Source: an uncultured Demequina sp.
Lineage (GTDB): Bacteria; Actinomycetota; Actinomycetes; Actinomycetales; Demequinaceae
Length of the DNA: 22,769 nucleotides
Direction: 5' to 3'
Assembly (NCBI GenBank): GCA_937925595.1
Contig: CALALQ010000073.1
Location: forward strand, 1 to 22,769
The translations under genes and the position numbers were made by a program. The notes beneath the pieces were generated by a model that made no database searches, was not told the origin of the DNA, and saw only the letters and a program-made list of their open reading frames with translations. The first letter of the stretch is position 1, and each line of letters starts with the position of its first letter. This document shows, in pieces, positions 554 to 22,769 of the stretch.

Positions 554-1164
554 CCCTGGGGGTCTCGCCCTCGCGCGAGGTCGAGCATCGCCTTTCCTGT
601 GGCCCCCAGTTCGCGGATGTGACCGCGAAGGGTGTGCTCACCGAGGATGGGTGGCGGGTACGCTCCCTGCGCCTCGAGCCCCAGCCGCTCGCACAGCCAC
701 ACCGCGCGGGGCAGATGGAACTCCTGCGTCGCGACGATCACCGAGCGCATGCCGTACTCATCCCGCGCCCTGATGCAGCTCGAGTAGGTGTCCACGCCCA
801 GCGGGTCCTCGATGATCGCCTCTGGCGGCACCCCGGCCTGCTCCGCGACGCGCCGCATCACCTTGGGCTCGCCGTGGCCAGAGGAGTCCTCGCCCGCGCC
901 GGACATGATGATGACGTCCACCAGGCCCTGCCGGTACAGCCGCACGCCGGTGACGATGCGTTCGCGCAGGAACCTGCTGGCCCGTCCGTCCGGCCACACG
1001 CGCGCACCCAAGACCAGCGCAGCGTCGGCCTTCGTGAAATTGCCCGACGCTATGGGATGGCGGGCACCAACGGTCGCCAATCGCGCGGTGAGAGCGGGCG
1101 TGGCGACGGCGAGCGCTGCGCCAGCAGTGGCGGCGGCGAAGATGGCGAGCGGTCGCGAACTCAC
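550..1164 (-). CDS. SanA/YdcF-like DUF218 protein, downstream copy
   Basis: This 204-residue protein has one N-terminal membrane anchor (about residues 5-26) and a DUF218 domain. The domain shows ADAALVLGARV near residue 46, VDVIIMSGAGED near 82, the segment EDPLGVDTYSSC near 118, and SVIVATQEFHLPRA near 138. The pattern matches SanA (a vancomycin-exclusion protein) and YdcF, which act in or near the envelope with no firmly established reaction. It is a close paralog of the gene just upstream; both share GVPPEAI.EDPLGVDT and the same order of motifs. The GTG start lies 22 bases after that gene's stop and has only a weak ribosome site, so coupling is likely but the exact start is uncertain. 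Confidence 0.75.
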   Translation of the reverse strand: MSSRPLAIFAAATAGAALAVATPALTARLATVGARHPIASGNFTKADAALVLGARVWPDGRASRFLRERIVTGVRLYRQGLVDVIIMSGAGEDSSGHGEPKVMRRVAEQAGVPPEAIIEDPLGVDTYSSCIRARDEYGMRSVIVATQEFHLPRAVWLCERLGLEAQGAYPPPILGEHTLRGHIRELGATGKAMLDLARGRDPQG

Positions 1165-1186
1165 CCCATGACTTTACGTCGGGCGA

Positions 1187-1813
1187 CTAGCCGCGCAGGA
1201 CGTCGAGCCAGGCTTTGACGGCGGCGGGGATCTCGCGCCAGTTGCCCGCGATGGTCGCCTTGCGGAAGCGCTCGGGAGGATAGGCGCCCTGGACGTCGAG
1301 GCCGGAGCGCTGGCACAGCCAGGTGGCGCGCGGGGCATGGAACTTCTGAGTGGTGACGATGACCGACTCCACGTCGAAGATGTCGTGGGCCCGCACACAG
1401 CTCGTGAAGGTGTCCACGCCGAGCGGGTCCTCGAAAATCGCCTCCGGTGGGACGCCCATTTCCTCGGCGACCTTGCGCATGATGGTGGGTTCGCCATACC
1501 CGCTTGAGTCGTTGCCGTCTCCGCTCATGATGAGGACGTCGACCACGCCCGCCTGGTACAGCGCCACGCCCGCGGCAACGCGCTCTCGCAGGAAGGGAGA
1601 GGCATAGCCGCCGGGATAGACGCGCGCTCCGGGAACCAGGGCGGCGTCCGCGTGCTGGAGATCGCCCTCGACGGGACCCACGTCGCCCGTGGTCTGCACG
1701 CGAATCGTCAGCCACGGCACAATCGGCACGGACAGCGCCACAACGAGGATCGCGGTGACCCAGCGCCGACGCGTGCGCGTGCGAGGTGGCGCTACCTCAG
1801 CGAGTGCCGCCAC
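1187..1813 (-). CDS. SanA/YdcF-like DUF218 protein, upstream copy
   Basis: This 208-residue protein has an arginine-rich N-terminus (TRTRRRW), one membrane helix at about residues 19-37 (inside-positive, so the domain is probably outside the membrane), and a DUF218 domain. Visible motifs are ADAALVPGARVYPGGYASPFLRER, VDVLIMSGDGND, EDPLGVDTFTSC and SVIVTTQKFHAPRATWLCQRSGL. The GTG start is supported by a GGGGGGA run (about 1821-1826) seven bases before it. It overlaps the 3' end of accE by 22 bp, so it is probably translated from the carboxylase mRNA. The tandem copy downstream suggests a local duplication. Function is unknown beyond the envelope-associated SanA/YdcF family. Confidence 0.75.
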   Translation of the reverse strand: MAALAEVAPPRTRTRRRWVTAILVVALSVPIVPWLTIRVQTTGDVGPVEGDLQHADAALVPGARVYPGGYASPFLRERVAAGVALYQAGVVDVLIMSGDGNDSSGYGEPTIMRKVAEEMGVPPEAIFEDPLGVDTFTSCVRAHDIFDVESVIVTTQKFHAPRATWLCQRSGLDVQGAYPPERFRKATIAGNWREIPAAVKAWLDVLRG

Positions 1814-2037
1814 GCCATGTCCCCCCGGCCAAGCGGCAGCATGATGCGGCGGCCGCGCATGGTGCGAGTCCGGTCCATCCAGGCGGAGGTCGGCGCTCCG
1901 GCGGTCTCGTCATCGGACCCAGCCGTTGCCACGGCCACCATGCCCGCAACGAGCGCGGCAAGTTCTTCCTCGTCGACGGAACCGCGCACCACCTTGAGCG
2001 ATGCGGCGGCGGCGAGCGCAGCGTCGGGCCGTGTCAC
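1792..2037 (-). CDS. accE: Acyl-CoA carboxylase epsilon subunit
   Basis: This small 81-residue protein has the features of the actinomycete acyl-CoA carboxylase epsilon subunit: an early [18 protein letters not shown] segment (residues 14-31), a variable middle, and a C-terminal tail with SAWMDRTR and [10 protein letters not shown]. In actinomycetes this subunit binds the carboxyltransferase beta subunit and stimulates holoenzyme activity. The GTG start overlaps the accD TGA stop as GTGA, the classic layout for coupled translation with the beta subunit directly upstream. The biotinylated alpha subunit is not in this window. Sequence conservation in the family is low, but size, motif order and position make the call fairly secure. 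Confidence 0.8.
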
Positions 2038-3650: not shown

Positions 3651-3655
3651 GCCGG

Positions 3656-4501
3656 GTGACCCAGCCCACGCCCGCATCGATCGCCGCTTCTCGCGAGCCT
3701 CTCGTGGCTGATTCGTTCGTGGACATGGTGGGTCCCGGCAGGCCGCTGAGCAGGCTCGATGTGGTCCCCAGTTCCGCGTCAACCAACACCGCCGTCTTGG
3801 CCGCGGTTTCTCAGTCGCCCGACGCTTGGGGCCACTTCAGCGCAATGGTCGCCGATCATCAGACGGCGGGGCGCGGAAGGGCTGGCCGTGAGTGGCGCAC
3901 GCCGCCCCGAGCGGCGCTCACAGTGTCGTTTGTGGTGCGTCCATCGGTGGCCCGGTTCGAATACGGCTGGGCTCCGCTCGTGGTGGGGCTTGCAACGGTG
4001 CGCGCGCTGCGTCGCCAGGGCGTTGGCGCGTTCCTCAAGTGGCCCAACGACGTGGTAGTTGAGCACGGTGCTCGCGACATCCCCGAGTGGGGGCGCTGGC
4101 GAAAGTGCGTGGGCATCCTGTGCGAAGCGGTGCCGGGGCAGGACGCGTTCGTAGCCGGAATCGGCATCAACGTGTCGCAGTCCTCTGCGGAGTTGCCTGT
4201 GCCCCATGCCGCGTCACTCGCCACCTTGGGCGCCTCGTCGCTTGACCGGGTGGCGCTGCTGCGCGCGCTCGCGGCGGAGTTGCGCGATGCGGTGCGCGAG
4301 TGGGAGGACGGCGCTCCCATCGCCGACGCCGTGGTCGCCGCGTGCGCAACCATCGGCTGGGACATTGTCGTGGACGCTCCCGGCGGTGAGGTGATCACCG
4401 GAAAGGCGATGGGCATCGCGGCGAGCGGAGGGCTGGTGGTTCGCACGGCGTCCGGTGATCGTGAAGTGCTCGCTGGCGACATCCGCGTCAGGCGCGCTTA
4501 G
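3656..4501 (+). CDS. birA: Biotin-[acetyl-CoA-carboxylase] ligase
   Basis: This 281-residue enzyme activates biotin with ATP and attaches it to the lysine of the biotin carboxyl carrier domain. Clear family motifs are GRGRAGREW (residues 72-80, biotinyl-AMP binding loop), KWPND (128-132) and KCVGILCE (150-157), followed by GIGINV and a C-terminal cap of about 50 residues ending in LAGDIRVRRA. There is no N-terminal winged-helix DNA-binding domain, so it is a group I ligase and not a BirA repressor. The GTG start has no Shine-Dalgarno and lies six bases after a TAGCCT -10 element, which fits leaderless translation. Its divergent neighbour accD is a subunit of a biotin-dependent carboxylase, so the pairing makes functional sense. 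Confidence 0.92.
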   Translation: MTQPTPASIAASREPLVADSFVDMVGPGRPLSRLDVVPSSASTNTAVLAAVSQSPDAWGHFSAMVADHQTAGRGRAGREWRTPPRAALTVSFVVRPSVARFEYGWAPLVVGLATVRALRRQGVGAFLKWPNDVVVEHGARDIPEWGRWRKCVGILCEAVPGQDAFVAGIGINVSQSSAELPVPHAASLATLGASSLDRVALLRALAAELRDAVREWEDGAPIADAVVAACATIGWDIVVDAPGGEVITGKAMGIAASGGLVVRTASGDREVLAGDIRVRRA

Positions 4502-4589: not shown

Positions 4590-5162
4590 GTGCACAACAG
4601 CCCTTCTCGCGATGACCGGAACTCGGCGCCAAAGCCTGGCCTGAACCCTGCGGTGCCAGGGAGCGCTGCCCGGGCGTTCCTTGGCTGGCGGACCACAGCG
4701 TCGGCCCTGCTGTTTGTGTGGGGTGTGGTGCCCTTTGGCTGGCGCTTCATCCTGAGGGATCCGGAGGGCTTTGAGGACCTCGCGTTTGTGCTGCTTGCGG
4801 TGTTCGCTTACGGGGCCGCGCTGTTCGTGGTGATTCCGGCGTTCGCGTTCACGCTGGGGCGCTGGATTGACCGACGCACCACTCCCCGTGGTCTTGGGCG
4901 CTCGCTGATCTCGTTTGGGCTGTGGGGATTTGGCTTTGGCCTGGTGATGGTGCTGCTGGTGGGTATTGCAGCGTTGACGCCGGTGGGGATCGTGGTGCTG
5001 CTGGCCGCGCCCACACTTGCGGCGGTTATTGGCCGAGTCCTTGTGGAGCTGCGTGGACGTGGCTGGGCGATCACCTTCTGGGTGACGTTCACGCTTGCGG
5101 TGCTTGCGGCGATCACGCTCGTTGGCACGGTGGTGCTGTCAGCGTTCTTCCAGCAGGGTTAG
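4590..5162 (+). CDS. Hypothetical multi-pass membrane protein
   Basis: I do not recognise this 190-residue protein. A polar, proline-rich N-terminus of about 30 residues is followed by hydrophobic segments near residues 35-53, 64-85, 105-125, 128-146 and 157-183, suggesting four or five membrane spans. An arginine-rich loop (RWIDRRTTPRGLGR) between the second and third spans probably faces the cytoplasm. The GTG start is preceded at about 11 bases by AGGTGGGA. The last codons converge on the SRAP gene, and the two stops overlap by four bases. A perfect TTGACA lies at 4535-4540, but no convincing -10 follows at normal spacing. The gene follows birA by 88 bp and could also be co-transcribed with it. 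Confidence 0.6.
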   Translation: MHNSPSRDDRNSAPKPGLNPAVPGSAARAFLGWRTTASALLFVWGVVPFGWRFILRDPEGFEDLAFVLLAVFAYGAALFVVIPAFAFTLGRWIDRRTTPRGLGRSLISFGLWGFGFGLVMVLLVGIAALTPVGIVVLLAAPTLAAVIGRVLVELRGRGWAITFWVTFTLAVLAAITLVGTVVLSAFFQQG

Positions 5163-5959: not shown

Positions 5960-5990
5960 GTGGTGCCGCTTGACAAGGCGACGGGCAGCC

Positions 5991-5999
5991 TTATCCACA
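5991..5999 (+). promoter_or_regulatory. Consensus DnaA box
   Basis: TTATCCACA matches the strict DnaA-box consensus TTATNCACA at every position. It lies immediately upstream of the tad operon -35 element. A perfect TTGACA (5970-5975) with a 16-bp gap to TATCCA (5992-5997) could be a second, weaker promoter that the box would overlap. With only one box there is no case for an origin. Confidence 0.4.
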
Positions 6000-6006
6000 G
6001 CAACGG

Positions 6007-6035
6007 TTGCCAAGATTGGGGGTCGCCACTACCTT
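6007..6035 (+). promoter_or_regulatory. Promoter of the tad operon
   Basis: TTGCCA (6007-6012), a 17-bp spacer and TACCTT (6030-6035) form a good sigma-70-type promoter. The ATG at 6042 follows the -10 by six bases, so the tadA mRNA should be leaderless. This supports 6042 over the earlier in-frame start at 5970. Confidence 0.6.
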
Positions 6036-6041
6036 CGGCGC

Positions 6042-7268
6042 ATGGGGGGAGACCCGATCATTACGGTCGAATCCCGCGTGCGCGAAGAGATCCGGCGCCG
6101 CGGGGTAGATCCCGTGCGCGACGCGGAGGTGGTGCGCGGGCTCATTGAAGAGGTGCTCACCGAGTGGGAAGAGCGCGCGCTCGCCGGTGCCGTCGTGCCG
6201 GTGGGCAACCGGGCCGACGCTGCGCGCACCGTGCTCTCGAACGTCGCCGGGCTGGGGCCGCTTCAGCAGTATCTCGACGATCCCGAGGTCGAGGAGATCT
6301 GGATCAACCGGCCGTCGCAGGTGTTCATAGCGAGGCGCGGAGTGAGCGAGCTGACGCCAACGATCCTCACGGATGAGCAGGTGCGCGACCTCGTGGAGCA
6401 CATGCTCAAGCTGAGCGGTCGGCGGTTGGATCTCAGTTCGCCGTTCGTGGACGCCTCACTTCCCGGCGGCGAGCGGCTGCACGCGGTGATCCCGGATGTC
6501 ACGCGCGAGCACTGGAGCGTCAACATCCGCAAGTACGTGGCAAGGGCGCAGTCCGTTGGCGACCTGGTGGCGCTGGGGACGCTCACCGAACCGGCCGCGA
6601 GGTTCCTGGATGCCGCGGTGGTGTGCGGACTGAACATCCTGGTCGCGGGCGGCACACAAGCCGGAAAGACCACCACCCTTGGCGCGCTAGCGGGATCGAT
6701 TCCCGCACGCGAACGCATCATCACGTGCGAGGAGGTGTTTGAGCTCAGCCTCTCCCATCGCGATGTGGTGGGGTTGCAGTGCCGCCAGCCGTCACTCGAG
6801 GGCACCGGCGAGATCGACCTGCGACGCCTGGTGAAGGAGGCGCTGCGCATGCGTCCCAGCCGCATCATCATCGGCGAGGTGCGTGAGGCTGAAAGCCTCG
6901 ACATGCTCATCGCATTGAACGCCGGCATTCCTGGCATGTGCACGGTGCACGCGAACTCCGCGCGGGATGCGGTGGTGAAGATGTGCACCCTGCCGCTGCT
7001 CGCGGGCGAGAACGTGTCCGACCGCTTCGTTGTGCCAACCGTCGCATCTGCGATTGACCTTGTGGTGCACCTTGCCGTCGATGCGCGCGGCCGGCGCCGC
7101 GCCACCGAGATCGTGGCAATCCCGGGCCGCGTCGAGGGGGGCGTGGTGGAGCTCGAGCCGCTCTACGTGAACCGCGGCAACGGTTTGGTCCGTGCCGAGG
7201 GCTTCCCTCCGCACGAGGATCGCTTCGCCCGCAATGGCTACCGTCTCGCGGAACTGCTGGCGGCCTGA
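6042..7268 (+). CDS. tadA: Tad pilus assembly ATPase (TadA/CpaF family)
   Basis: This 408-residue secretion ATPase powers assembly of Flp/Tad pili at the inner face of the membrane. The Walker A loop GGTQAGKT has its lysine at residue 209. The Walker B region RIIIGEVREAE has its glutamate at about 279, and an HAN motif follows (VHANSARDA). The N-terminal part carries the CpaF signature GLGPLQQYLDDPEVEEIWINRPSQVF. The Gln-Ala in the P-loop, in place of Gly-Ser, is common in actinobacterial TadA proteins. The ATG at 6042 is preferred over an earlier frame opening because a TTGCCA/TACCTT promoter ends six bases before it. It leads an operon with tadB one base after its stop. No TadZ/CpaE-type localisation gene precedes it. 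Confidence 0.92.
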   Translation: MGGDPIITVESRVREEIRRRGVDPVRDAEVVRGLIEEVLTEWEERALAGAVVPVGNRADAARTVLSNVAGLGPLQQYLDDPEVEEIWINRPSQVFIARRGVSELTPTILTDEQVRDLVEHMLKLSGRRLDLSSPFVDASLPGGERLHAVIPDVTREHWSVNIRKYVARAQSVGDLVALGTLTEPAARFLDAAVVCGLNILVAGGTQAGKTTTLGALAGSIPARERIITCEEVFELSLSHRDVVGLQCRQPSLEGTGEIDLRRLVKEALRMRPSRIIIGEVREAESLDMLIALNAGIPGMCTVHANSARDAVVKMCTLPLLAGENVSDRFVVPTVASAIDLVVHLAVDARGRRRATEIVAIPGRVEGGVVELEPLYVNRGNGLVRAEGFPPHEDRFARNGYRLAELLAA

Positions 7269-7269
7269 C

Positions 7270-8130
7270 ATGACGCTGCTGCTGGGACTGACCCTGGGCC
7301 TCGGTCTGTTCTTGGTGTGGACATCGTTCTGGGCGCCAACGGTCGCCGCGCGGCCTGCTCGCGATGGCTGGTCAGCGCGGCTGCAGGATCGGCTCACGCG
7401 CGCCGGCGCCCCCGGCGTCACGCCCGCAGCGCTCGTGACCGTCGCCGCAGTGGGTGCGGCACTGGTCTTCCTGCTCGTCGCGGGCACCAGCCGGTCGCCG
7501 GTAGTCGCGCTGTGCTTCGCGATCATGGCCGCTCGCGCTCCCTTCGCATTGGTGAGCTACCGCTCGCGGGTGCGGGTTCGCGCCACGCGCGCCGCCTGGC
7601 CCGACGCTGTGGACCACTTGGCCTCCGGGATTCGGGCGGGCATGGCCTTGCCGCAAGCCGTGGCTCAGTTGGGCTCACGAGGTCCGGAAGATCTGCGCCC
7701 GGCCTTTGCTGCGTTTGCCGAGGACTTCAGAGCTACGGGGCGCTTCAGTGAGTCGCTGGATGCGCTCAAGGATCGGCTCGCGGATCCTGTCGCCGATCGC
7801 ATCGTTGAGGCCCTGCGGGTCACCCGTGAAGTGGGTGGCACGGATGTGGGGACGATGCTGCGCACCTTGGGCGAGTTTCTCCGTGACGATGCGCGCACCC
7901 GCGGCGAACTCGAGGCCCGTCAGTCGTGGACCGTCAATGCCGCCCGGCTCGCGGTGGCGGCACCGTGGGTGGTTCTCGCACTGCTGGCCACGCGTCCGGG
8001 AGGTGTTGAGGCGTACAACTCGGCCGCCGGAGCGACCGTGCTTGCCGTAGGCGCTGCTGCAACGGTGGTGGCGTATCGCTTGATGGTGACCATTGGCCGC
8101 CTTCCCGAGGAAGCCCGCGTGCTGCGATGA
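7270..8130 (+). CDS. tadB: Tad pilus inner-membrane platform protein TadB
   Basis: This 286-residue protein of the type II secretion F (T2SSF) family forms, with TadC, the membrane platform on which the ATPase acts. Two hydrophobic spans occur near the N-terminus (residues 1-20 and 55-90), then the cytoplasmic T2SSF core with AWPDAVDHLASGIRAGMALPQAVAQLG and the REVGGTDVGTMLRTLGEFLRDDARTRGELEARQSW segment, then two C-terminal spans. The ATG at 7270 lies one base after the tadA stop, so translation is coupled. An upstream extension of 26 codons overlaps tadA in another frame and lacks the hydrophobic start, so it was not used. The gene ends in an ATGA overlap with tadC. Confidence 0.88.
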   Translation: MTLLLGLTLGLGLFLVWTSFWAPTVAARPARDGWSARLQDRLTRAGAPGVTPAALVTVAAVGAALVFLLVAGTSRSPVVALCFAIMAARAPFALVSYRSRVRVRATRAAWPDAVDHLASGIRAGMALPQAVAQLGSRGPEDLRPAFAAFAEDFRATGRFSESLDALKDRLADPVADRIVEALRVTREVGGTDVGTMLRTLGEFLRDDARTRGELEARQSWTVNAARLAVAAPWVVLALLATRPGGVEAYNSAAGATVLAVGAAATVVAYRLMVTIGRLPEEARVLR

Positions 8131-9044
8131 CTCTGGCGATGTGGGGAGCGGTCCTGTGCCTCGTTGTGGGGGCGGGCCTCGTGATGTCGTGGATCCTTGC
8201 GCGCCGCCCCACCCTCGACGCGCGGCTCGCCCCGTACGTGCGGCCGGTCGACGGTCGCACCTGGGTGGACCACACGTCGGGCTCGCGCTTCGTCGTGACA
8301 CGGCTGGTCGCTCCCGTGGTTCGCGACGCGGGCAAGATGCTCGAGCGATGGGGGTCGTCCTCCGCCGATGTCAGCGCTCGGCTGCGCAGGGCGGGATCGG
8401 GGCTGAGCGTCGAGCAGTTCAGGGCCCAACAGGTCGCGTGGGGCGCGGCCGGTCTCGCCTGCGGCGTTGCGCCCGCCACGCTGCTGCGCGTTGCGCGCGG
8501 GGCCCCTCTCCTCGTACTGCTGATTCTCGTGGTGATTGCCGCCATCGTTGGTGCGCTCGGACGAGACGCCGCTCTGACCCGCTCGGCCCAGGTTCGTACC
8601 AACCGCATCGTCGCCGAACTGCCGACGATCGCGGACCTGCTGGCCCTCGCCGTCGCCGCCGGTGAGGGCGCCCGGGCGGCGCTCGAGCGGGTGGCGACCA
8701 CAACGTCGGGCGCTCTGAGTGAGGAGCTGCGACTCGCGCTCGCCGATGCCCGCGCGGGCGAGCCGCTCACACGGGCCTTGTCAGATATGGCTGCCCGCAC
8801 TGGTGCGCAGCCGCTGCGTCGCTTCGTCGACGGCATCGTCGCGGCAATCGACTTGGGCACGCCTCTTGCCGCGGTGCTTCGCGCGCAGGCTCATGACGCG
8901 AGGGTGGCCAGCAGGGAGCAGCTGATGGAGCAGGGTGGCAAGCGCGAGATCGCGATGCTCGTGCCCGTCGTGTTCCTGATCCTGCCCGTGACGATTGTGT
9001 TCGCGATCTACCCAGGTCTGATTGCGATTCGCTTGACCGGATAG
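8127..9044 (+). CDS. tadC: Tad pilus inner-membrane platform protein TadC
   Basis: This 305-residue T2SSF-family protein is the second platform component. It has an N-terminal membrane span (MWGAVLCLVVGAGLVMSWIL), a pair of central spans near residues 108-148, a cytoplasmic domain with RIVAELPTIADLLALAVAAGEGARAALERVA and TPLAAVLRAQAHDAR, and a final span (LVPVVFLILPVTIVFAIYPGLIAI). Its ATG overlaps the tadB TGA as ATGA. A 19-bp gap with a strong ribosome site separates it from the pilin-like gene. Order and size match other actinobacterial tad loci. Confidence 0.88.
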   Translation: MTLAMWGAVLCLVVGAGLVMSWILARRPTLDARLAPYVRPVDGRTWVDHTSGSRFVVTRLVAPVVRDAGKMLERWGSSSADVSARLRRAGSGLSVEQFRAQQVAWGAAGLACGVAPATLLRVARGAPLLVLLILVVIAAIVGALGRDAALTRSAQVRTNRIVAELPTIADLLALAVAAGEGARAALERVATTTSGALSEELRLALADARAGEPLTRALSDMAARTGAQPLRRFVDGIVAAIDLGTPLAAVLRAQAHDARVASREQLMEQGGKREIAMLVPVVFLILPVTIVFAIYPGLIAIRLTG

Positions 9045-9063: not shown

Positions 9064-9222
9064 ATGAGACAGATCAACTGGCGCGACGACCGCGGTGACG
9101 TACCCGGCTGGGTGCTCATCACGCTCATGACGGCGGGACTCGTGGCCGCCATCTGGGCGCTCGCGGGTCCGGCACTCAGCGATGTCTTCCGCACGGCGAT
9201 CGATTCCGTCACCGGCGGATGA
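9064..9222 (+). CDS. Flp-like pilin candidate (52 aa)
   Basis: This very small gene encodes 52 residues: a charged head (MRQINWRDDRGD), a single hydrophobic helix from about VPGWVLITLMTAGLVAAIWALAG, and a short amphipathic tail (PALSDVFRTAIDSVTGG). A strong Shine-Dalgarno, AAGGAGGG (9053-9060), precedes the ATG by three bases. Position after tadC, size and single-helix design match the major Flp pilin slot in actinobacterial tad operons. The processing region is not canonical, however: Flp prepilins are cut after Gly before a residue run with Glu5-Tyr6, and here the run after RG is DVPGWV with no Glu-Tyr. The 3' end overlaps the next gene by 41 bp. It is called a pilin from context more than motif. 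Confidence 0.7.
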   Translation: MRQINWRDDRGDVPGWVLITLMTAGLVAAIWALAGPALSDVFRTAIDSVTGG

Positions 9223-9583
9223 CCAGGGGAGTGCTGTCGTCGAGTTCGTTCTCGTCGGCGCGCTCATCGTGGTGCTCGCCACCGGGCTGCTCCAGCTCGC
9301 GGTGACCCTGCACGTGAGGAACATCCTTGTCTCGTGTGCGTCCGAGGGTGCCCACACCGCGGCCCTGGCGGACCTCGACTTGGCCGACGGCGCAAGCAGG
9401 GCCACGGAGCTCGCGGAAGCGGCTCTCGGGGGACGTGAGGTCGAGGCGACCGCGCGACATGTGATGGAGGGGGACGCCACGCTGGTCGAGGTCACCCTGA
9501 CGACTGCCGTGCCGGTGCTTGGGCTGTGGGGCGCAGGCTCCATGAGCGTCCCTGCGCACGCAATTGAGGAGGGCGGCCCATGA
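9182..9583 (+). CDS. tadE: TadE-like pseudopilin
   Basis: This 133-residue protein has the TadE signature just after a short polar head: DDQGSAVVEFVLVGALIVVLATGLLQLAVTLHVRNI. The glycine before SAVVEF is the likely prepilin peptidase site, with Glu at the fifth position after it. A single N-terminal helix is followed by a mixed extracytoplasmic domain of about 90 residues. The ATG at 9182 is the only start that keeps the whole signature. It overlaps the upstream pilin gene by 41 bp and has no separate ribosome site, so it probably depends on coupled translation. The end overlaps the next gene as ATGA. Confidence 0.82.
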   Translation: MSSARRSIPSPADDQGSAVVEFVLVGALIVVLATGLLQLAVTLHVRNILVSCASEGAHTAALADLDLADGASRATELAEAALGGREVEATARHVMEGDATLVEVTLTTAVPVLGLWGAGSMSVPAHAIEEGGP

Positions 9584-10047
9584 CCCTGTCCCGACTGCGC
9601 GTTGCCGACGACGGCGCGGCGCTCGTGGAGTTCGTGTTCCTTGCGATCGTGCTGATGATCCCCGTGGTGTACCTGGTGCTGACTCTGGCTCAGGTGCAGG
9701 CGCGCACTTTCGCGGCGGAGGCCGTCACGCGCGATGTGTCACGAGCAGCAGTGGTGGGTGGCGTCAATGCGTTGCAGGGTGGTGCCACGTACACGGCTGC
9801 TGAGCGTGCAGCGAGGGACCACGCACAGTCCGCGCTCGAGCGGACGCTTGCCGACTTCAGCGTGTCAGCGCGCGATGCGGATGTCGTCCTGACATGTTCC
9901 GCCTCGCCGTGCCTCGCGCCGGGCTCGGAGATGCAGGTAGCCGTCACGATTGACGTGAGGCTGCCAGGGGTGGGGGCACTGATACCGGGAGCGCTCGTCA
10001 GTGTGAGCTCTTCAGGCTCCTCGCCCGTAGATGGGTACGCGCCATGA
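9580..10047 (+). CDS. TadE-like pilus assembly protein (second copy)
   Basis: This 155-residue protein has a clear TadE-type head, DDGAALVEFVFLAIVLMIPVVYLVLTLAQVQA (about residues 10-41), then an extracytoplasmic domain. A cysteine pair in VLTCSASPCLAPG (about residues 107-116) could form a disulphide; the preceding TadE protein does not have this pattern. The ATG overlaps the previous TGA as ATGA, and the stop overlaps the next ATG in the same way, so three TadE/TadG-type genes are tightly coupled. It is the slot usually called TadF or a second TadE in actinobacterial loci. Confidence 0.78.
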   Translation: MTLSRLRVADDGAALVEFVFLAIVLMIPVVYLVLTLAQVQARTFAAEAVTRDVSRAAVVGGVNALQGGATYTAAERAARDHAQSALERTLADFSVSARDADVVLTCSASPCLAPGSEMQVAVTIDVRLPGVGALIPGALVSVSSSGSSPVDGYAP

Positions 10048-10511
10048 TCCGCCGACGCTTCGACGCCGAAGACGATGAAGGCACCATCATGCTCCTCACC
10101 CTGGGCTTCACAGTGCTCGCGCTGCTGCTTGTGCTGGTGGTGTCCGCGGCCACCCACGTGCACCTCCAGCGGATGAGGCTGGTCCACGTGGCCGATGAGC
10201 TGGCTCTCGACGCCGCCGATGCTCTCGACATTGCCGCGTACTATCGCGGCGAAGTGGACCTTCCTGAGGGCGAAGCCGTGGTGCCCTTGGCCCAGGCAGC
10301 CGTTCGCTCCACGGCGGAGGATCGCGTTGCGGCTGCAGCATCGCGCGCGAACCTGCCGGCGACCCAGGTCGTGAGCGCCACAACGGAGGACGGCTTCAGC
10401 GCGACTGTCACTGTGACAACGACCGTGCACCCGCTATTCGGGCTGGAAGCGCTGCTGCCCTTTGCCGAGGGCGTGACGCTTACGGCGACGTCGAGCGCCC
10501 GAGCCTACTGA
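10044..10511 (+). CDS. TadG-like pilus assembly protein (short form)
   Basis: This 155-residue protein begins with RRRFDAEDDEGTIMLLTLGFTVLALLLVLVVSAATHVHL, a charged head ending in DEG followed by one long hydrophobic helix. The segment RLVHVADELALDAADALD (about residues 47-64) is typical of the N-terminal region of TadG (Tad_N) and related proteins. True TadG proteins often carry a large C-terminal domain that is absent here, so this is the short actinobacterial form. It is the last gene of the operon. The stop TGA (10509-10511) overlaps a copy of the recurrent 10-mer AGCGTCGGGC (10511-10520). Confidence 0.7.
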   Translation: MIRRRFDAEDDEGTIMLLTLGFTVLALLLVLVVSAATHVHLQRMRLVHVADELALDAADALDIAAYYRGEVDLPEGEAVVPLAQAAVRSTAEDRVAAAASRANLPATQVVSATTEDGFSATVTVTTTVHPLFGLEALLPFAEGVTLTATSSARAY

Positions 10512-10535
10512 GCGTCGGGCCAGAGGGGAGTTCGG

Positions 10536-14369: not shown

Positions 14370-16964
14370 CTAGGCACCCGCCACGAGGGAGTTCACGGAC
14401 ACCAGAACGCGCTCGGCGAGGAACGCCTCAGGGTCAACCGCAGCCTCGGACGCGATGGTGATGACCACCGTGTCATCCGGCACAAGAGTGATGAGCGCCT
14501 TGTCTGCCACGGCGCCCGGATCCACCTTGTCAGCGAGGATCGTGAGATCCCGGACAAAGCCCTCGGCCTCGATCGTCACCTCGTAGCCTCCGTCCACTGC
14601 GCGGGCCGTTGCCGTAAACGGCGCGGCCTCGTAAGCGATGTCCTTGTCCTCCGCGAAGGTCCACACCGCGCGAACGTGATCGTCGTCGCCCGGGTAGCCA
14701 GCGTCGGCCACCAGCACCTCGCCCACAGCGTCACCGGCCTCGAGCACATGCGCGGGGACGTCGAGCGTGACGGTCTCGCGCGGGCCGGCGCTCAGGTGTG
14801 CCGTGGCCACCGCGAGCTCGGTGCCGTCGAGCGCCATGCGCGTGAAGGTGAGCGTCTCGCTCCACGCCTGATCAGTGTCGTTGACCGCCACCAGATGCGC
14901 CGCGCCATCGACGTCGAGAGAACCGTCTTCAGCGCGCGGCTGGAAGGTGAGCAGTCGCGGCGCGAACACCTTCTGCAGCGCGTAGTACAGCGGCTTGGGT
15001 CGCTCTTCGCCATCGATCGCCGCCCACGAGGTCACGGGCCAGCAGTCGTTGAGCTGCCACACGATCGCGCCGGCGGTGTGCGGCCACCACGAACGGTAAT
15101 GAGAGATGCCGAACTCAATGGCGCGCGCCTGATTCAGCGACGTGATCCAGTGCCACGTCTCGAAGTCGTCGCTGTCCGGAAGGTGCGGGACGTAGCCGGC
15201 GAGGAGCTTGTCATTGCCGCGGTCGGCCTTCTGGTGAGCGAGCCACACCTCAGAGGTCTTGTCGAAGCCCTCCGGCGGCAGGTTGCGCTGCATGGTCGCC
15301 CACGTCGCCGGCCCCTGGAAGCCGAACTCCGAGCAGAACCGCGGCGCGTAGTCCGCGTAGTGGGTGTAATCGATCTGGTTCCAGACCTTCCACTCATGCA
15401 CCGTGCCCACCGTGGGGTCGTTGGGGTAGACGCTGGCGTCATACGGGTGCGTAGAGAAAGGAGAGGACGGCGTGTAGGGACGCGTGGGGTCGAGCTCCTT
15501 GAGGATGGCGGGCAGGATCTCCTCGTAGTACTTCTGACCCCAGCCCTCGAGACCGGCGGCTGCCATGGCCTCCTTCCAGCCCCAGTCCCACCAGCCCCAC
15601 ACGTTCTCATTGGAGCCGTTCCACAGCGCGAGCGATGCGTGCGGTGCGAGGCGAGTGATGTTCTCGCGCGCCTCCGCCTCGACCTCAGCAATGGTCTCGG
15701 CATCCTCCGCGTACGCCGCGCACGCGAACAGGAAGTCCTGCCACACCATGACGCCGCGCTCATCGCACACGTCATAGAAGTCGTCGGTCTCGTAGATGCC
15801 CCCGCCCCAGATGCGAATCATGTTGATGTTGGCGGACGTGGCCTGGTCGATGCGACGCTCCAGGCGCTCCCGAGTGATGCGCGTGAGGAAGTGGTCGTCA
15901 GGAATCCAGTTGGCGCCCTTGATGAACACCGGCTTGCCGTTCACCACGAACGTGAACGCGCCACCGTCCTGATTCACCTCAATGCTGCGGAAGCCCACAC
16001 GGCGCGCGTAGGCGTCAAGGTGCTCATCCTGACTGTGAAGCTCCACCGTGAGGTCATACAGCGTGGGGTCGCCATAGCCGTTGGGCCACCACAGGTCGGG
16101 TTCCGGCACGGTCACCGTGACAATGCCCGACGCTGCGCCCGGCTCGATCTCAACACTCGCCTCACGCCCGGCGACGGTCGCGAACACCTTGAGCGGAGCG
16201 TCGGCCGCGCGCTCAATCTCGAAGTGCACGTCCACAACGCCCGTGCCGTTCTGTACCGTGACCAGCGGGCGCACCGAGGCGAAGCGGGCGATGCGCCAGC
16301 GCTCGATGCGCACCGGCTTCCAGATGCCGGCGGTCTGCAGGTCCGGGCCCCAGTCCCAGCCGAACGAGCAGGCCATCTTGCGAATCGCATTGAACGGCTG
16401 GGGGTAGACGCGGCCTCGCTGCAGGATCTCCTCAGGGTCGCCCTCGATGAGTCCGCGGCGCGCCGCCTCCGCCATGAGCTTCTCGCTGGGCTGGGGGCGG
16501 GGCCTGTCACCCAGCTGCTCCTCGCGCTCAAGCGCGTACTCAAGCGCGCTGCGGAAGTCCACCTCGAGGCGGTTGTTGCCGGCAGCTAGGGCCTCGCGAA
16601 TGTCGAAGCGGTAGGAGCGGTGCATGTTGGCGGTGGAGCCCAGCACCTTGCCGTTGAGCGAGATGGTCGCGACGGTGTCGAGGCCGTCAAAGACCAGGTC
16701 CACGCGCTCGCCTTCCGTGACCTCGGTGGCCGCGAACTCGGTCGCGTAGCGCCACGAGCAGCGCCACATCCACTGCAGTTCCTTCTCATTGGTGCCATAG
16801 AAGGGGTCAGGGATGAGACCCGCCGCCAGCAGGTCAACGTGAGTAGAGCCAGGAACCACCGCATCCACGGTGACTCCGGCGATCTCAGCAGGTGCCTCCC
16901 CACCTGTGTGGGTGAGGGTCCAGCCCTCGCGAAGCGGGTTGGCGACAAGCGTCACAGCGGTCAT
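14370..16964 (-). CDS. Beta-mannosidase, glycoside hydrolase family 2
   Basis: This 864-residue exo-hydrolase releases mannose from the non-reducing end of beta-mannosides. No signal peptide is seen, so it is probably cytoplasmic and acts on imported oligosaccharides. The N-terminal sugar-binding domain opens with REGWTLTHTGG and contains VPGSTHVDLLAAGLIPDPFYGTNEKELQWMW, a stretch characteristic of beta-mannosidases rather than beta-galactosidases. The TIM barrel carries the acid/base glutamate at 453 in WNGSNENVWGWW and the nucleophile at 546 in CSEFGFQGP. Length is normal for the family. The start is placed at the ATG with an AAGGA ribosome site (MTAVTLVANP); an in-frame ATG 12 codons earlier has none. 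A LacI-type palindrome lies about 60 bp upstream. Confidence 0.92.
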   Translation of the reverse strand: MTAVTLVANPLREGWTLTHTGGEAPAEIAGVTVDAVVPGSTHVDLLAAGLIPDPFYGTNEKELQWMWRCSWRYATEFAATEVTEGERVDLVFDGLDTVATISLNGKVLGSTANMHRSYRFDIREALAAGNNRLEVDFRSALEYALEREEQLGDRPRPQPSEKLMAEAARRGLIEGDPEEILQRGRVYPQPFNAIRKMACSFGWDWGPDLQTAGIWKPVRIERWRIARFASVRPLVTVQNGTGVVDVHFEIERAADAPLKVFATVAGREASVEIEPGAASGIVTVTVPEPDLWWPNGYGDPTLYDLTVELHSQDEHLDAYARRVGFRSIEVNQDGGAFTFVVNGKPVFIKGANWIPDDHFLTRITRERLERRIDQATSANINMIRIWGGGIYETDDFYDVCDERGVMVWQDFLFACAAYAEDAETIAEVEAEARENITRLAPHASLALWNGSNENVWGWWDWGWKEAMAAAGLEGWGQKYYEEILPAILKELDPTRPYTPSSPFSTHPYDASVYPNDPTVGTVHEWKVWNQIDYTHYADYAPRFCSEFGFQGPATWATMQRNLPPEGFDKTSEVWLAHQKADRGNDKLLAGYVPHLPDSDDFETWHWITSLNQARAIEFGISHYRSWWPHTAGAIVWQLNDCWPVTSWAAIDGEERPKPLYYALQKVFAPRLLTFQPRAEDGSLDVDGAAHLVAVNDTDQAWSETLTFTRMALDGTELAVATAHLSAGPRETVTLDVPAHVLEAGDAVGEVLVADAGYPGDDDHVRAVWTFAEDKDIAYEAAPFTATARAVDGGYEVTIEAEGFVRDLTILADKVDPGAVADKALITLVPDDTVVITIASEAAVDPEAFLAERVLVSVNSLVAGA

Positions 16965-17149: not shown

Positions 17150-19432
17150 ATGACCACCGAAGCCGTCAACACCAACGCCATCAAGGATGACGCGCAGGAC
17201 CCGCGCGCCCACGCATGGCGGGGCTTTACGCCCGGAACGTGGTGCGACGCGATCGACGTACGCGGATTCATCCAGTCGAACTACACCCCCTACGAGGGCG
17301 ACGACTCGTTCCTGGCAGGACCCACCGAGCGCACCAAGGCGGTGTGGGACAAGCTCACCGCGATGTTCCCCGAGGAGCGCGCCAAGGGCGTCTACGACGT
17401 CGACTGGAAAACCCCAGCGTCGATCACCGCGCACGAGCCCGGCTACATCGACAAGGACCAGGAGGTCATCGTCGGCCTCCAGACCGACGCTCCCCTCAAG
17501 CGCGCGATCATGCCGTTCGGCGGATGGCGCATGGTGGTCAAGGAGCTCGAGACCTACGGCTACCCGGTTGACCCCGAACTCGAGAAGATCTTCACGCAGT
17601 ACCGCAAGACCCACAACGACGGCGTCTTCGACGTGTACCCGCCCAATGTGCGTGCGGCTCGCTCGTCGCACGTGATCACCGGCCTTCCCGACGCCTACGG
17701 CCGTGGCCGCATCATCGGCGACTACCGCCGTGTCCCGCTCTACGGCGTCGACGCCCTCATCGAGGCCAAGAAGGTCGAGCGCATGGAGCTCGACATGGAG
17801 CGCTCCACCGAGGACGTCATTCGCGACCGCGAAGAGAACTCTGAGCAGATCAAGGCGCTCAAGGAGCTCAAGGCGATGGCAGCGTCGTACGGCTACGACA
17901 TCTCCAAGCCGGCGACCAACGCGAAGGAGGCGGTGCAGTGGCTGTACTTCGCCTACCTGGGTGCCGTGAAGGAGCAGAACGGTGCCGCGATGTCCCTTGG
18001 CCGCACCTCGACCTTCATCGACATCTTCATTGAGCGCGACATCGCCGGCGGTGTGCTCACCGAATCCGAGGCGCAGGAGATCATCGACGACTTCGTCATC
18101 AAGCTCCGCATCGTGCGGTTCCTGCGCACCCCCGAATACGACAACCTGTTCTCCGGCGACCCCACGTGGGTCACCGAGACGATTGGCGGCATCGGTGAGG
18201 ACGGTCGCCCGCTCGTCACGCGCACCTCGTTCCGCTACCTGCAGACCCTGTACAACCTGGGGCCCGCGCCGGAGCCGAACCTCACGGTGTTCTGGTCCGA
18301 CCGCCTGCCGCAGGGCTTCAAGGAGTTCTGCGCCAAGGTCTCGATTGACACGTCCGCGCTTCAGTACGAGTCCGACGAGCTGATTCGCCCCGCCTGGGGT
18401 GACGACGCGGCGATCGCGTGCTGCGTGTCCGCGATGGCCGTCGGCAAGCAGATGCAGTTCTTTGGAGCGCGAGTGAACCTCGCCAAGGCGCTGCTGTACG
18501 CGATCAACGGCGGCCGCGACGAGGTCACCGGCAAGCAGGTCGCACCGGTCTCCGCGCCCGTAGGTGGCGACGTCCTCAAGTATGAGGAGGTCGACGCCGC
18601 CTTCGACAAGCTCATGGACTGGCTCGCGGAGACCTACGTCGACGCGCTCAACTGCATCCACTACATGCACGACAAGTACGCGTACGAGCGCCTCGAGATG
18701 GCCCTCCACGACAAGACCATCCTGCGCACCATGGCATGCGGCATCGCCGGCCTGTCCGTGGCCGCCGACTCGCTCAGCGCCATCAAGTACGCGACGGTTC
18801 GCCCGGTGCGTGACGAGTCTGGCCTGGCAGTCGACTACAAGGTGGAGGGCGAGTTCCCCACCTACGGCAATGACGACGACCGCGCCGACGAGATCGCCGT
18901 GGACCTGGTCAAGCGCTTCATGGCGAAGATCCGCAGGCAGCCCACCTATCGCAACTCGCTGCATACGCAGTCGGTGCTGACCATCACGTCGAACGTCGTC
19001 TACGGAAAGGCCACCGGAAACACCCCTGATGGTCGACGCGCAGGCGAGCCCTTTGCCCCAGGTGCCAACCCGATGAATGGACGCGACAACCACGGTGTCC
19101 TAGCGTCGGCCCTCTCTGTGGCGAAGCTGCCTTACGACGACGCCCAGGACGGCATCTCGCTGACCACCACGATCACGCCCTCCGGCCTTGGCCGCACCAA
19201 GGACGAGCAGGTCAAGAACCTGGTGGGCATCCTCGACGCCTACAACGTCTCTCACGGCTTCCACGTGAACATCAACGTGCTGAACCGCGAGACGCTTGAA
19301 GACGCCATGGAGCACCCGGAGAAGTATCCGCAGCTCACGATTCGCGTGTCGGGATTCGCCGTGAACTTTGTGCGCCTCACTCGCGAGCAGCAGCTCGACG
19401 TGCTGAGCCGCACCTTCCACGCAGGCCTCTAG
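17150..19432 (+). CDS. pflB: Pyruvate formate-lyase
   Basis: This 760-residue glycyl-radical enzyme converts pyruvate and CoA to acetyl-CoA and formate under anoxic conditions in the cytoplasm. The catalytic pair Cys424-Cys425 sits in IACCVSAM (E. coli Cys418-Cys419). The radical glycine is residue 735 in RVSGFAVNF near the C-terminus (E. coli Gly734). The N-terminal part contains [10 protein letters not shown] and the substrate-pocket stretch [16 protein letters not shown]. Full length and both motifs make it a genuine pyruvate formate-lyase rather than a diol dehydratase relative. The ATG has an AGGGAGG ribosome site (17139-17145). The activase gene follows after 39 bp, and the oxygen-sensitive pair implies fermentative growth. 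Confidence 0.97.
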
Positions 19433-20278: not shown

Positions 20279-20289
20279 GCCGGCCGCGG

Positions 20290-20376: not shown

Positions 20377-20391
20377 GCTTTGGGGAAGTCG

Positions 20392-20440
20392 GCCCGACGC
20401 TGGGGCACGTTCCGTACGCAACCTGGCCCCAGCGTCGGGC
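20392..20440 (+). repeat. 15-bp perfect inverted repeat between the 87-bp copies
   Basis: GCCCGACGCTGGGGC (20392-20406) and its exact complement (20426-20440) enclose a 19-base loop. It could terminate pflBA transcripts, though no T-tract follows on the plus strand. Each arm contains the recurrent 10-mer GCCCGACGCT. Confidence 0.75.
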
Positions 20441-20453
20441 TGGCCTGGGACTG

Positions 20454-20540
20454 GTGCAGGTTCTCCAGGCTCCTGGCCCTGCATCGGTGTTCAGAAGTCC
20501 ACGCCTGCAGGGTCCTCAGCCCCAGGACCCGGCGAGCGCG
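20454..20540. repeat. 87-bp imperfect direct repeat, copy 2
   Basis: This is the second copy of the 20290-20376 block, offset by 164 bp and of identical length. Unlike copy 1 it contains GGGTCCT paired with AGGACCC, so the potential secondary structures differ between copies. Its end lies 13 bp from the T-run of the aminotransferase terminator. Confidence 0.8.
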
Positions 20541-20553
20541 CCCGCTCACGGGC

Positions 20554-20600
20554 AAAAAAAAGCGAGCGCCGGGCCGACTCCTCAGTTGTCGGCCCGACGC
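20554..20600 (-). terminator. Rho-independent terminator of the aminotransferase gene
   Basis: On the minus strand GCGTCGGGCCGAC (20600-20588) pairs with GTCGGCCCGGCGC (20578-20566) at 12 of 13 positions around a 9-base loop. It is followed after four bases by eight T residues (20561-20554). It begins 25 bp beyond the stop codon. The stem contains a 9/10 match to the recurrent 10-mer. Confidence 0.92.
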
Positions 20601-20625
20601 CCACGGGAGTGCGGGAAGCGCTCCG

Positions 20626-21999
20626 CTACGCGGTCAGCGCCGCCGCAAGCTCGTCGAAGACGCGGACGTACTCGTCGACCGCCTCGAAGGTGTGAACCAC
20701 GGACAGCGTCCACTCCTCTTCACGGCCAGGAGTCATAAAGATTCCGTGGTTCATGTTCCACAGCCATGCGAGGTCGCACAGCGGAACGTCCTGGTTCTCC
20801 TTGAAGGTTTCGTAGTCCACGATCTTCGCGGTGGAGAAGGTCACGCAACCCTTGGAGCCGATGCCCACGGCATAGCCGGGGAGGTCGTACTTGTCGATGA
20901 CCGCCTGGCAGCCGCTCACGATGCGGTCGTTGAGCGCGGCGAGGTGGTCGTAGGCCTCAGGGGTGAGGATCTCAAGCAGCGACGCGCGCGCGGCAACCAT
21001 CGACAGCGGGTTTCCGTTGTAGGTGCCAACCTGATAGACCGAGTGGTCCTCGACAACGGACATGACCTCTTCGGTGCCACCAATCGCGCCGGACGGCAGA
21101 CCACCACCAAGCACCTTGGCGAGCGTCACCATGTCCGGCTTCACGCCGAACTTCTCGGTGGCGCCACCGGCAGCAATCGCGAGACCGGTCTTGACCTCAT
21201 CGAAGATCAGCACGATCCCGTGCTTCTTGGTGATCTCGCGCACTGCCTCAAGGTAGCCGGGCTCAGGGAGCACAACGCCAAGGTTCATCATGGCGGCTTC
21301 CATGATCACGCACGCGGGAAGGCGGCCCTCCGCGGCGAGGCGCTCGATGCGACGCTCCATCGCGGGAGCGTCGTTGAACGGCACCGCGATGGTCATGTCG
21401 ACTGTTGCCTGCGGGATGCCGGCTCCGTAGGGGAGCGAGGCGAGGTTGTCACGGTCGCCGATCTTGTCGTACTCAACTCCAATCGACACCATGACCGTGT
21501 CGTGGTGACCGTGGTAGGAGCCGAAGATCTTCATCACCGTGTCGCGGCCGGTGTAGGCGCGGGCGATGCGGATCGCGTCCATCGTGGACTCGGAGCCGGA
21601 GTTGGTGAAACGCCACTTGGGAAGACCCCAGCGGCGGGCGAGCTCGTCAGCGACGAGTACGGAGTCCTCGGTCGCCACACCAAAATGCGTGCCAAGCGGG
21701 AAGCGCTTCGCGATGGCCTCGCCGATCGCGGGGTGCGCGTGACCCTGCACCATTGAGCCGAAGCCGTTGTGGAAGTCGTAGTACTCGTTGCCATCGACGT
21801 CGGTGATGCGGTCGCCGGCTCCGGATGCGATGTAGATGGGCCACGGGTCGCGGCTCTGGTAGGACGACGCGACGCCACCGCTGAGGTGCTGCGACGCGTG
21901 CTCGTACATTTCGCGCGACTTCTGAGTGCGCGCGTTGAGGAGATCGGTCTGCTCGGCGATGAGCTGATTGATGCGATCCCGGTCAAGGGTGATGGCCAT
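20626..21999 (-). CDS. Class III aminotransferase, glutamate-1-semialdehyde aminomutase-like
   Basis: This 457-residue PLP-dependent fold-type I enzyme resembles the glutamate-1-semialdehyde 2,1-aminomutase branch of class III aminotransferases. Visible landmarks are HLSGGVASSYQ near the start, FTNSGSESTMDAIRIARAYTGRD (phosphate-binding region), GSYHGHHD, IFDEVKTG with the pyridine-contacting Asp, and LAKVLGGGLPSGAIGG with the PLP-linking Lys295. The ATG has a GGAGG ribosome site. It is about 20-30 residues longer than typical HemL and lacks heme-pathway neighbours. Divergent pairing with an FAD amine/amino-acid oxidase suggests a role in amino-acid, omega-amine or polyamine catabolism. Substrate cannot be fixed from sequence. 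A strong terminator follows it. Confidence 0.85.
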   Translation of the reverse strand: MAITLDRDRINQLIAEQTDLLNARTQKSREMYEHASQHLSGGVASSYQSRDPWPIYIASGAGDRITDVDGNEYYDFHNGFGSMVQGHAHPAIGEAIAKRFPLGTHFGVATEDSVLVADELARRWGLPKWRFTNSGSESTMDAIRIARAYTGRDTVMKIFGSYHGHHDTVMVSIGVEYDKIGDRDNLASLPYGAGIPQATVDMTIAVPFNDAPAMERRIERLAAEGRLPACVIMEAAMMNLGVVLPEPGYLEAVREITKKHGIVLIFDEVKTGLAIAAGGATEKFGVKPDMVTLAKVLGGGLPSGAIGGTEEVMSVVEDHSVYQVGTYNGNPLSMVAARASLLEILTPEAYDHLAALNDRIVSGCQAVIDKYDLPGYAVGIGSKGCVTFSTAKIVDYETFKENQDVPLCDLAWLWNMNHGIFMTPGREEEWTLSVVHTFEAVDEYVRVFDELAAALTA

Positions 22000-22111
22000 G
22001 ATGCCTCCGCCCGCCCGGCCTGGCGACGGGCTTCAGTGCGTCGTACTGGCCCCGCCGCCGGCCTGGCGCTGGAGGGGCATAGCAACTGTGCCGCTGCCAG
22101 TGTAATCAGAC

Positions 22112-22158
22112 GCCCGACGCTCCCGCCAAGCGAGCAGGGACAGCCGCCCCAGCGTCGG
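22112..22158. repeat. Inverted pair of the recurrent 10-mer
   Basis: GCCCGACGCT (22112-22121) and AGCGTCGGCC (22151-22160, one base different) are in opposite orientation and share an 8-bp complementary core, CCGACGCT (22114-22121) with AGCGTCGG (22151-22158). They lie upstream of the aminotransferase, where a terminator is not expected. Confidence 0.6.
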
Positions 22159-22165
22159 CCCGGCA

Positions 22166-22270
22166 GAACGCTCCGCACGGACGATGTGACGGAAGTGAAT
22201 GGTGGGACGAGCCAAGCCCCGCTCGCGACCACACCAGTCTCACCAGTCACACGGTCCGTGCGGAGCGTTC
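22166..22270. repeat. Long imperfect hairpin element between divergent genes
   Basis: GAACGCTCCGCACGGAC (22166-22182) is exactly complementary to 22254-22270. After a 2x2 internal loop, TGTGAC (22185-22190) pairs with GTCACA (22246-22251). Further inward, GTGA/TCAC, TGGTG/CACCA and CGAGC/GCTCG can also pair, so nearly the entire 105 bases can fold into one rod around a short CAAGCCCC loop. Both neighbouring genes point away, so it is not an ordinary terminator. It could be a structured 5' leader for the FAD oxidoreductase, a small RNA, or a MITE-like palindrome. The rest of the 22009-22366 gap shows only the inverted 10-mer pair and no clear promoter. Confidence 0.7.
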
Positions 22271-22366
22271 CGGACGCGAGCATTTGCCAAGGTGGGCTGG
22301 CGTCAGGTTGGATTCTCCTTGGGTGCTCCGCCAATGCGTGGGCCCCCCGACAGGGAGTGATAACCC

Positions 22367-22769
22367 GTGGGTGCCACGGTCTTTGAACGCCAGGCTCCGG
22401 ATCCTGCGCTGGTGCAGGCCGCGCTCGCGGATTCTCGCCTCACGCCCTTCTGGCTTGACGACGTCGAGCGTCCCTCCTATCCGCGCCTCGACACTGACGC
22501 CTCCGCTGACCTGGTGATCGTCGGCGGCGGCTATTCCGGCCTGTGGACCGCGATCCTCGCGAAGGAGCGCAATCCCAGCCGTTCGGTGATCCTGCTGGAG
22601 GCTCGGCGCGTGGGCTGGGCAGCGTCGGGCAGGAATGGCGGCTTCTGCGAGGCGAGCCTCACGCACGGCGATGAGAACGGCGAGCGGCGCTGGCCGGAGG
22701 AGATGGAGACGCTCCCCCGCCTCGGCCTCGAGAACCTCGACGAGATCCAGGCGACGGTCAAGCGCTACG
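22367..22769 (+). CDS. FAD-dependent amine/amino-acid oxidoreductase, N-terminal part
   Basis: The window edge cuts this gene after 134 codons. The N-terminal region includes TPFWLDDVERPSYPRL, then the dinucleotide-binding motif DLVIVGGGYSGLWTAILAKE with glycines from residue 53, an acidic strand end (ILLEARRVGWAASGRNGGF), and the flavin-contacting ASGRNGG motif. This is the DAO-fold pattern of gamma-glutamylputrescine oxidase (PuuB/OrdL) and related enzymes that oxidise amines or N-alkyl amino acids. The GTG start is preceded by GGGAG (22353-22357) nine bases away. It is divergent from the class III aminotransferase, and such pairs commonly act in one amine or amino-acid degradation route. 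The catalytic domain is off the edge. Confidence 0.85.
   Translation, partial: MGATVFERQAPDPALVQAALADSRLTPFWLDDVERPSYPRLDTDASADLVIVGGGYSGLWTAILAKERNPSRSVILLEARRVGWAASGRNGGFCEASLTHGDENGERRWPEEMETLPRLGLENLDEIQATVKRY

Follow-up and report, generated by a model that had tools for sequence, protein, structure and literature searches.

A dispersed ten-letter word in Demequina and related genomes, a candidate DNA uptake sequence

The window, by which we mean the whole 22,769-nucleotide stretch analysed here (contig CALALQ010000073.1 of an uncultured Demequina sp.), holds a run of tad pilus genes and a ten-letter word, scattered within and between genes, that is a candidate DNA uptake signal. The word has two spellings, GCCCGACGCT and GGCCGACGCT, which are counted together below as GSCCGACGCT. 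The tad genes lie on the forward strand and encode a TadA/CpaF-type pilus ATPase (5970..7268), a TadB-type protein of the T2SSF family (7192..8130, taken as the longest open reading frame, so that its start is tentative), a TadC-type protein, also T2SSF (8127..9044), a TadE-like protein (9182..9583) and a Tad TadE/G-like protein (10044..10511, PF13400). An acyl-CoA carboxylase epsilon gene, birA and a glycoside hydrolase 2 gene are also present, and a pyruvate formate lyase gene is followed by that of its activating enzyme (17150-20278). Genes were called in the window with a home-made caller that missed some real genes, tadB for example. At gathering scores no Rfam family matched the window, ARAGORN found no tRNA within it, and a promoter and terminator scan of 10000-22769 yielded no more than shuffled sequence did.

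The first-pass annotation had reported ten exact copies of GCCCGACGCT where about 0.2 were expected. All ten are present at the starts it gave, and 100 dinucleotide shuffles of the window gave a mean of 0.18 copies and a maximum of 2. On the forward strand they lie at 1042..1051, at 3817..3826 in birA, at 7599..7608 in tadB, at 16125..16134 in the glycoside hydrolase 2 gene and at 22112..22121; on the reverse strand they lie at 2020..2029 in the acyl-CoA carboxylase epsilon gene, at 10511..10520 at the end of the tad run and at 22621..22630, the last within an open reading frame (22247-22666) without Pfam support. The other two form a convergent pair, GCCCGACGCT ... AGCGTCGGGC, at 20392..20440, between two converging genes. 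The seven reported copies of GGCCGACGCT also exist, against about 0.2 expected, although the one placed at 19105 starts at 19102. One is on the forward strand, in tadA (6212..6221), and six are on the reverse strand: 1021..1030, 4697..4706, 14700..14709 and 16197..16206 (both in the glycoside hydrolase 2 gene), 19102..19111 (in the pyruvate formate lyase gene) and 22151..22160. The copies at 22112 and 22151 are the left and right arms of a second convergent pair. Four exact copies had been called intergenic, which fits those starting at 10511, 20392, 20431 and 22112, except that the first overlaps the last base of the gene ending there. A near-copy in a terminator stem is present as GCCCGACGCC, one base from its reported place, at 20592-20601 rather than 20591-20600. 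Altogether GSCCGACGCT occurs 17 times in the 22.8-kb window. Among the 10-mers in the window, GCCCGACGCT exceeds its expectation the most, and among the 8-mers CCGACGCT has the highest count (20 copies against about 2.4 expected). The shuffles and the 10-mer ranking rule out chance or base composition as the source of the word.

A genome-collection search placed the window's TadA nearest to Demequinaceae metagenome-assembled genomes. Among 47 Demequinaceae genomes, as the collection groups that family, the best TadA match was in genome G052, with 90% identity. The window is collinear with G052, with 79% DNA identity across the roughly 21 kb that align, and G052, which includes a contig of 2,538,242 bases, served as a proxy for the window's own genome. 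Word counts were controlled with the reversed pattern. G052 contains 599 forward and 602 reverse copies of GSCCGACGCT (1201 in all), compared with 13 and 11 (24) for the control, which supports the earlier suggestion of a dispersed, uptake-type signal. This is about one copy per 2.1 kb. In nine genomes that do not belong to this family, it was about as frequent as its control (42 to 119 copies versus 43 to 126). A de novo count over 400 kb of G052 returned GCCCGACGCT as the first 10-mer, with 138 copies against 4.4 expected from a fourth-order model. The word prefers a following G (GSCCGACGCTG) and, weakly, a GCC downstream.

Six of the 14 window sites that align with G052 are identical there (those starting at 1042, 6212, 7599, 10511, 16125 and 19102), compared with 15.8% of random 10-mers (P 0.015). 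One further site, at 2020, differs only at the S position, where G052 has the G variant. The remaining sites are at least one letter off, with one mismatch at 1021 and 16197, two at 3817 and 14700, and six at 4697, as would be expected if copies come and go.

The excess persisted against codon-preserving shuffles. A 500-kb portion of G052, in which the home-made caller found 379 genes (coding fraction 0.79, some genes being missed), has 179 coding copies, while 200 shuffles averaged 11.2 and never went above 19, so that the excess is 16-fold. The sense orientation accounts for 107 of these copies, against a shuffle mean of 7.5, and the antisense for 72, against 3.8. Since both orientations within genes exceed the null, a signal that is read on RNA only can be ruled out. 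The word is denser outside the called genes (0.62 per kb) than inside them (0.46 per kb). The first-pass annotation had stated that coding copies keep one phase per orientation, and this is true of all nine copies in called genes of the window. In G052, however, the main phase accounts for 81 of the 107 sense and 49 of the 72 antisense copies, and the rest are in the other two phases. Thus, all three phases are used in both orientations, the single-phase rule is a tendency, and the enrichment is not limited to two codon runs. Of the two outcomes that the first-pass annotation had named as refutations, a genome-wide frequency no higher than codon-preserving shuffles predict and enrichment within codon runs alone, neither was seen in this proxy genome. 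The spacing of the copies in the portions of G052 analysed for it is random-like, with a coefficient of variation of 0.98, within the random 95% range of 0.86-1.14.

Other Demequina loci have different leading words, which can be aligned with GSCCGACGCT. Counted in all 47 genomes, GGCCGATGCT reaches 736 copies against a control of 15 (G025), GGCCGATGCG reaches 1203 against 21 (G035) and GGACGATGCG reaches 1564 against 5 (G029). These three form a series with one letter changed per step, and one or two changes of letter separate GSCCGACGCT from GGCCGATGCT. With a threshold for a strong dialect that we set ourselves, at least 80 copies per Mb (from genome sizes given to the nearest 0.1 Mb) and six times the control, 35 of the 47 genomes pass: 16 with GGACGATGCG, 12 with GGCCGATGCG, five with GGCCGATGCT and two with GSCCGACGCT. 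The other 12 are weak, including G056, which is only 1.1 Mb. Of cultured Demequina species, D. activiva is strong for GGCCGATGCG and D. gelatinilytica for GGACGATGCG. There are borderline cases, as G051 just passes (255 versus 25) and G044 fails despite 308 versus 51. De novo counting gave the dialect variants as the leading 10-mers in G052, G022, G006, G002, G025, G035 and G046, and only weak dialects in G051 and G044; no dialect was prominent in the stretches counted from G024 (100 kb), G031 (63 kb), G001 (44 kb) and G050 (64 kb). The counts of the three other dialects were higher than in any of 100 codon shuffles of the stretches tested (21 vs a maximum of 8, 18 vs 7, 21 vs 2, 27 vs 8 and 22 vs 7), and G051 and G044 exceeded them slightly (11 vs 8 and 9 vs 6). 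In 100 kb of G024, which has no strong word, GSCCGACGCT was not above the shuffles, and GGACGATGCG was barely so (5 vs a maximum of 4). A separate word, GAACGGTACGG, occurs nine times in 180 kb of G044 (loci L133-L135 and L155-L160), against 0.07 expected; this genome is without a close tadA orthologue.

The dialects follow the TadA phylogeny to a considerable extent. A TadA tree was built for 30 of the 47 genomes, the window and two outgroups, with six group labels (weak and outgroup included). It requires 9 label changes, against a mean of 19.3 after shuffling, and none of 200 shuffles was as low. It is the GGACGATGCG and GGCCGATGCG groups that produce this clustering, with 0 of 500 shuffles reaching so low a value for either. 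That of GSCCGACGCT is weaker (29 of 500), and the GGCCGATGCT and weak groups are unclustered.

Two further words were first met in loci of Knoellia, Humibacillus and Marihabitans, which we take to be Intrasporangiaceae, and were counted in 119 genomes that were sampled evenly from a larger set and that belong to this second family in the collection's definition. SCGGCATACS is strong (at least 300 copies and five times the control) in 54 of these genomes and has at most 50 copies in 43. GCGAAGGGGG is strong in seven, with 566 to 1318 copies against 2 to 11 for the control, and has at most 28 copies in the others. All seven GCGAAGGGGG genomes have only 3 to 19 copies of SCGGCATACS. The two words are unrelated and mutually exclusive, and each exceeds codon shuffles in the one genome tested for it. 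Carriers of the two words include G019, G093, G094, G128, G129, G154 and G170, as well as G020, G063, G149, G152 and others. There is also an excess of a palindrome, TCACCGGTGA, in a Marihabitans locus (L062, 8 copies versus 0.2) and in G152 (L272-L274, 8 versus 0.5). A word of Cellulomonas edaphi, GTGGTTGTCC, was striking in one 21-kb locus; it was rejected as probably local, since it does not rank among the top words when 100 kb of that genome are counted.

What is the function of such a word? We consider it likely that GSCCGACGCT is this lineage's own DNA uptake sequence (DUS) dialect, spread by biased uptake, a reading that comes from the distribution of the word in the genomes. In the proposed mechanism, some component of the competence machinery, with the Tad/Flp pilus or ComEA as the likeliest site, would act as a receptor that favours double-stranded DNA bearing the word, and word-bearing DNA of the same kind would then enter by preference through ComEC. 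Recombination of the DNA taken up would spread the word, in both orientations, wherever the sequence tolerates it, by molecular drive. When the preference of the receptor shifts, the genome would slowly be rewritten, giving GSCCGACGCT, GGCCGATGCT, GGCCGATGCG and GGACGATGCG. Binding, uptake bias, the identity of the receptor and the drive are all predictions of this mechanism.

The genes for such a machinery are widespread in the family. ComEC (PF03772) was found in 46 of the 47 genomes, a ComEA-type HHH_3 domain (PF12836) scored over the cut-off in 45, and all 47 have a TadA-type match, of which hand-scoring retained 37 as intact orthologues. The ComEC matches are in two pieces in G052, G030 and G041. 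In another actinobacterium, Micrococcus luteus, the tad genes and comEC are required for transformation, according to two reports (PMC4322843, PMC8467076).

The system is probably DUS-like rather than a proven member of that class, as most of the testable sequence-level hallmarks fit. By one account of 2025, Neisseriaceae and Pasteurellaceae are the only families known to have uptake specificity (PMC12616744); both are Gram-negative. In Neisseriaceae, the DUS is likewise a word of 10-12 letters whose copies number from hundreds to thousands, lie both inside genes and in the gaps between them and in part form inverted repeats, and it has dialects in line with phylogeny (PMC3630211, PMC2346458). 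The differences here are the phylum and the word, the presence of Tad/Flp pilus genes in place of a type IV pilus with ComP, and the function, which in our case is a proposal. The uptake signal sequence (USS) of Pasteurellaceae is also short and seemingly random over the genome (PMC2346458), and a molecular-drive model has been put forward for its build-up (PMC1939737). The Demequina word is unrelated to the USS and belongs to a high-GC host. A weak flanking preference is known for the USS as well. Demequinaceae have four close spellings in one family, whereas the Pasteurellaceae have two types, by the same 2025 account (PMC12616744). M. luteus resembles the present case as an actinobacterium that uses comEA, comEC and tad for transformation (PMC4322843, PMC8467076), but 'uptake sequence' and 'DUS' have 0 matches in the main text of the first of these. 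Among the matches listed from the open-licence literature, by titles and the starts of abstracts, we found no work on uptake sequences in Actinobacteria, and no paper in the open-licence literature searched has 'Demequina' together with 'DNA uptake'.

Mobile DNA has entered tadA itself in several of these genomes. The gene is cut by inserts of 7.6-9.0 kb in G043 (L249), G039 (L250), G040 (L251) and G029 (L252), near codons 155, 155, 320 and 109, respectively, at about three different places, and each insert has a large serine recombinase beside a tadA junction. On this evidence tadA, which encodes the pilus ATPase, seems to attract integration, and competence genes are known as such targets in other systems. 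The four inserts together hold one copy of the host dialect, against 10.3 expected from genome density (P 0.0004, in a small sample). A fifth, longer insert (G036) was left out of this count; its main stretch has 0 copies of the host word, where density predicts one or two. In G036 (L247-L248) some 16 kb separate the two halves of tadA, the genes in between look phage-like on inspection by eye, and the three insert proteins scanned gave no Pfam match over the cut-off. Pieces of tadA that cover roughly its first 118 codons were also seen: three in a row before the full gene in G046 (L245), three past the split gene in G036 (L248), and single ones beside the full gene in G024 (L253) and G022 (L254) and alone in G030 (L255). 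They are perhaps traces of successive insertions. In Neisseriaceae, the distribution of the DUS has served to find integrative and conjugative elements, as one study describes (PMC7371117).

Several observations weigh against the uptake proposal. Any word that accumulates slowly would be scarce in recent mobile DNA. The tree represents a single gene rather than the core genome, with both outgroups falling inside it and its deep branches open, and G046 uses GGACGATGCG while its TadA sits outside that group's clade. ComEC of G052 (G052:C1:2039413-2040200), the genome strongest in GSCCGACGCT, is matched in two frames, through either an assembly error or a recently broken gene. Among the 12 weak genomes, 11 have ComEC, 10 have HHH_3 over the cut-off and eight have a tadA hand-scored as intact, so the presence of the machinery does not separate strong from weak genomes. 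In the nine genomes whose tadA is disrupted or missing, the median motif density is 118 per Mb, and in the 37 with an intact gene it is 295 per Mb, a difference that does not reach significance (P 0.22; G056 set aside), and G029 and G039 are among the densest genomes although their tadA is split. The link of the word to Tad is therefore circumstantial, without statistical support from the tadA-loss comparison.

A site for an abundant chromosome protein, of the nucleoid or of repair, that is selected site by site and not through uptake would also be a dispersed, strand-balanced word, moderately conserved between relatives. We regard this as unlikely, since the spacing is random-like, the copies in genes occupy all phases, and the respelling of about a thousand sites between relatives would be hard to achieve by selection at each site. 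The scarcity of the word in mobile inserts is neutral between this explanation and uptake. We see only a slight chance that the word is kept by a DNA methyltransferase or a restriction system. A precedent for over-represented words is HIP1 of cyanobacteria, a genome-wide short word that has been linked to methylation. HIP1 is a palindromic octamer, while GSCCGACGCT is not palindromic; moreover, single letters of the Demequina word change between relatives while it is still abundant.

The first-pass annotation had compared the inverted pairs to uptake sequences that double as terminators, and this holds for one of the two pairs in the window: 20392/20431 forms a strong hairpin (-43.5 kcal/mol, z -6.3), but 22112/22151 forms none (z +0.3). 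The same gap in G052 holds a pair of the same spacing as 20392/20431, whose fold is not above shuffles (z -1.0). Among 402 core sites in the window and G052 stretches, there are 15 convergent and 11 divergent pairs within 80 bases. Six convergent pairs have a core spacing of 36 or 37, against about 0.14 expected, although these two spacings were picked only once the pairs had been seen; one gap, shared by the window and G052, supplies two of the six. It might then be asked whether the word is a transcription-terminator arm that has spread, for which the hairpin between converging genes and the equally spaced pair in G052 would speak. The probability of this is very small, because most copies are single and the second window pair and the G052 counterpart fold no better than shuffles.

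A short word at the density seen in G052 could also be a guide for recombination or replication of the Chi or KOPS type. Chi and KOPS words are strand-biased along each replichore. The first 400 kb of G052 have 95 forward and 92 reverse copies, the stretch at 1.9-2.0 Mb has 29 on each strand, and no strand bias was found in these 500 kb out of 2.54 Mb, in which the origin was not located. Both strands are mixed in each of ten 50-kb blocks, with splits from 17/9 to 8/15, which speaks against such guides and leaves them barely credible. Over the 35 strong genomes, with the own dialect counted in each, there are 14,927 forward and 14,904 reverse copies. Finally, codon usage or repeated Pro-Asp-Ala and Ala-Ser-Gly stretches, suggested by the one phase per orientation of most coding copies, have a negligible chance of being the source and are refuted in G052 by shuffles that keep protein and codon counts (mean 11 vs 179), by the higher density outside called genes and by the use of the other phases.

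We return to the proposal that GSCCGACGCT is a DNA uptake sequence. From these genome comparisons, it seems somewhat more probable than its opposite that self-specific uptake has at least a third origin, which lies in high-GC Actinomycetota and involves a Tad pilus, with dialects acting as species barriers, and that it is common in Micrococcales, because the second family has two further words that are unrelated and mutually exclusive. If so, there would be a third group, in another phylum and with a different pilus, which would mean that uptake specificity evolves repeatedly. The dialects would offer a system in which to study how a receptor coevolves with a thousand genomic sites. The finding would also point to natural competence in Demequina and would suggest which tag to add to DNA to make such strains transformable.

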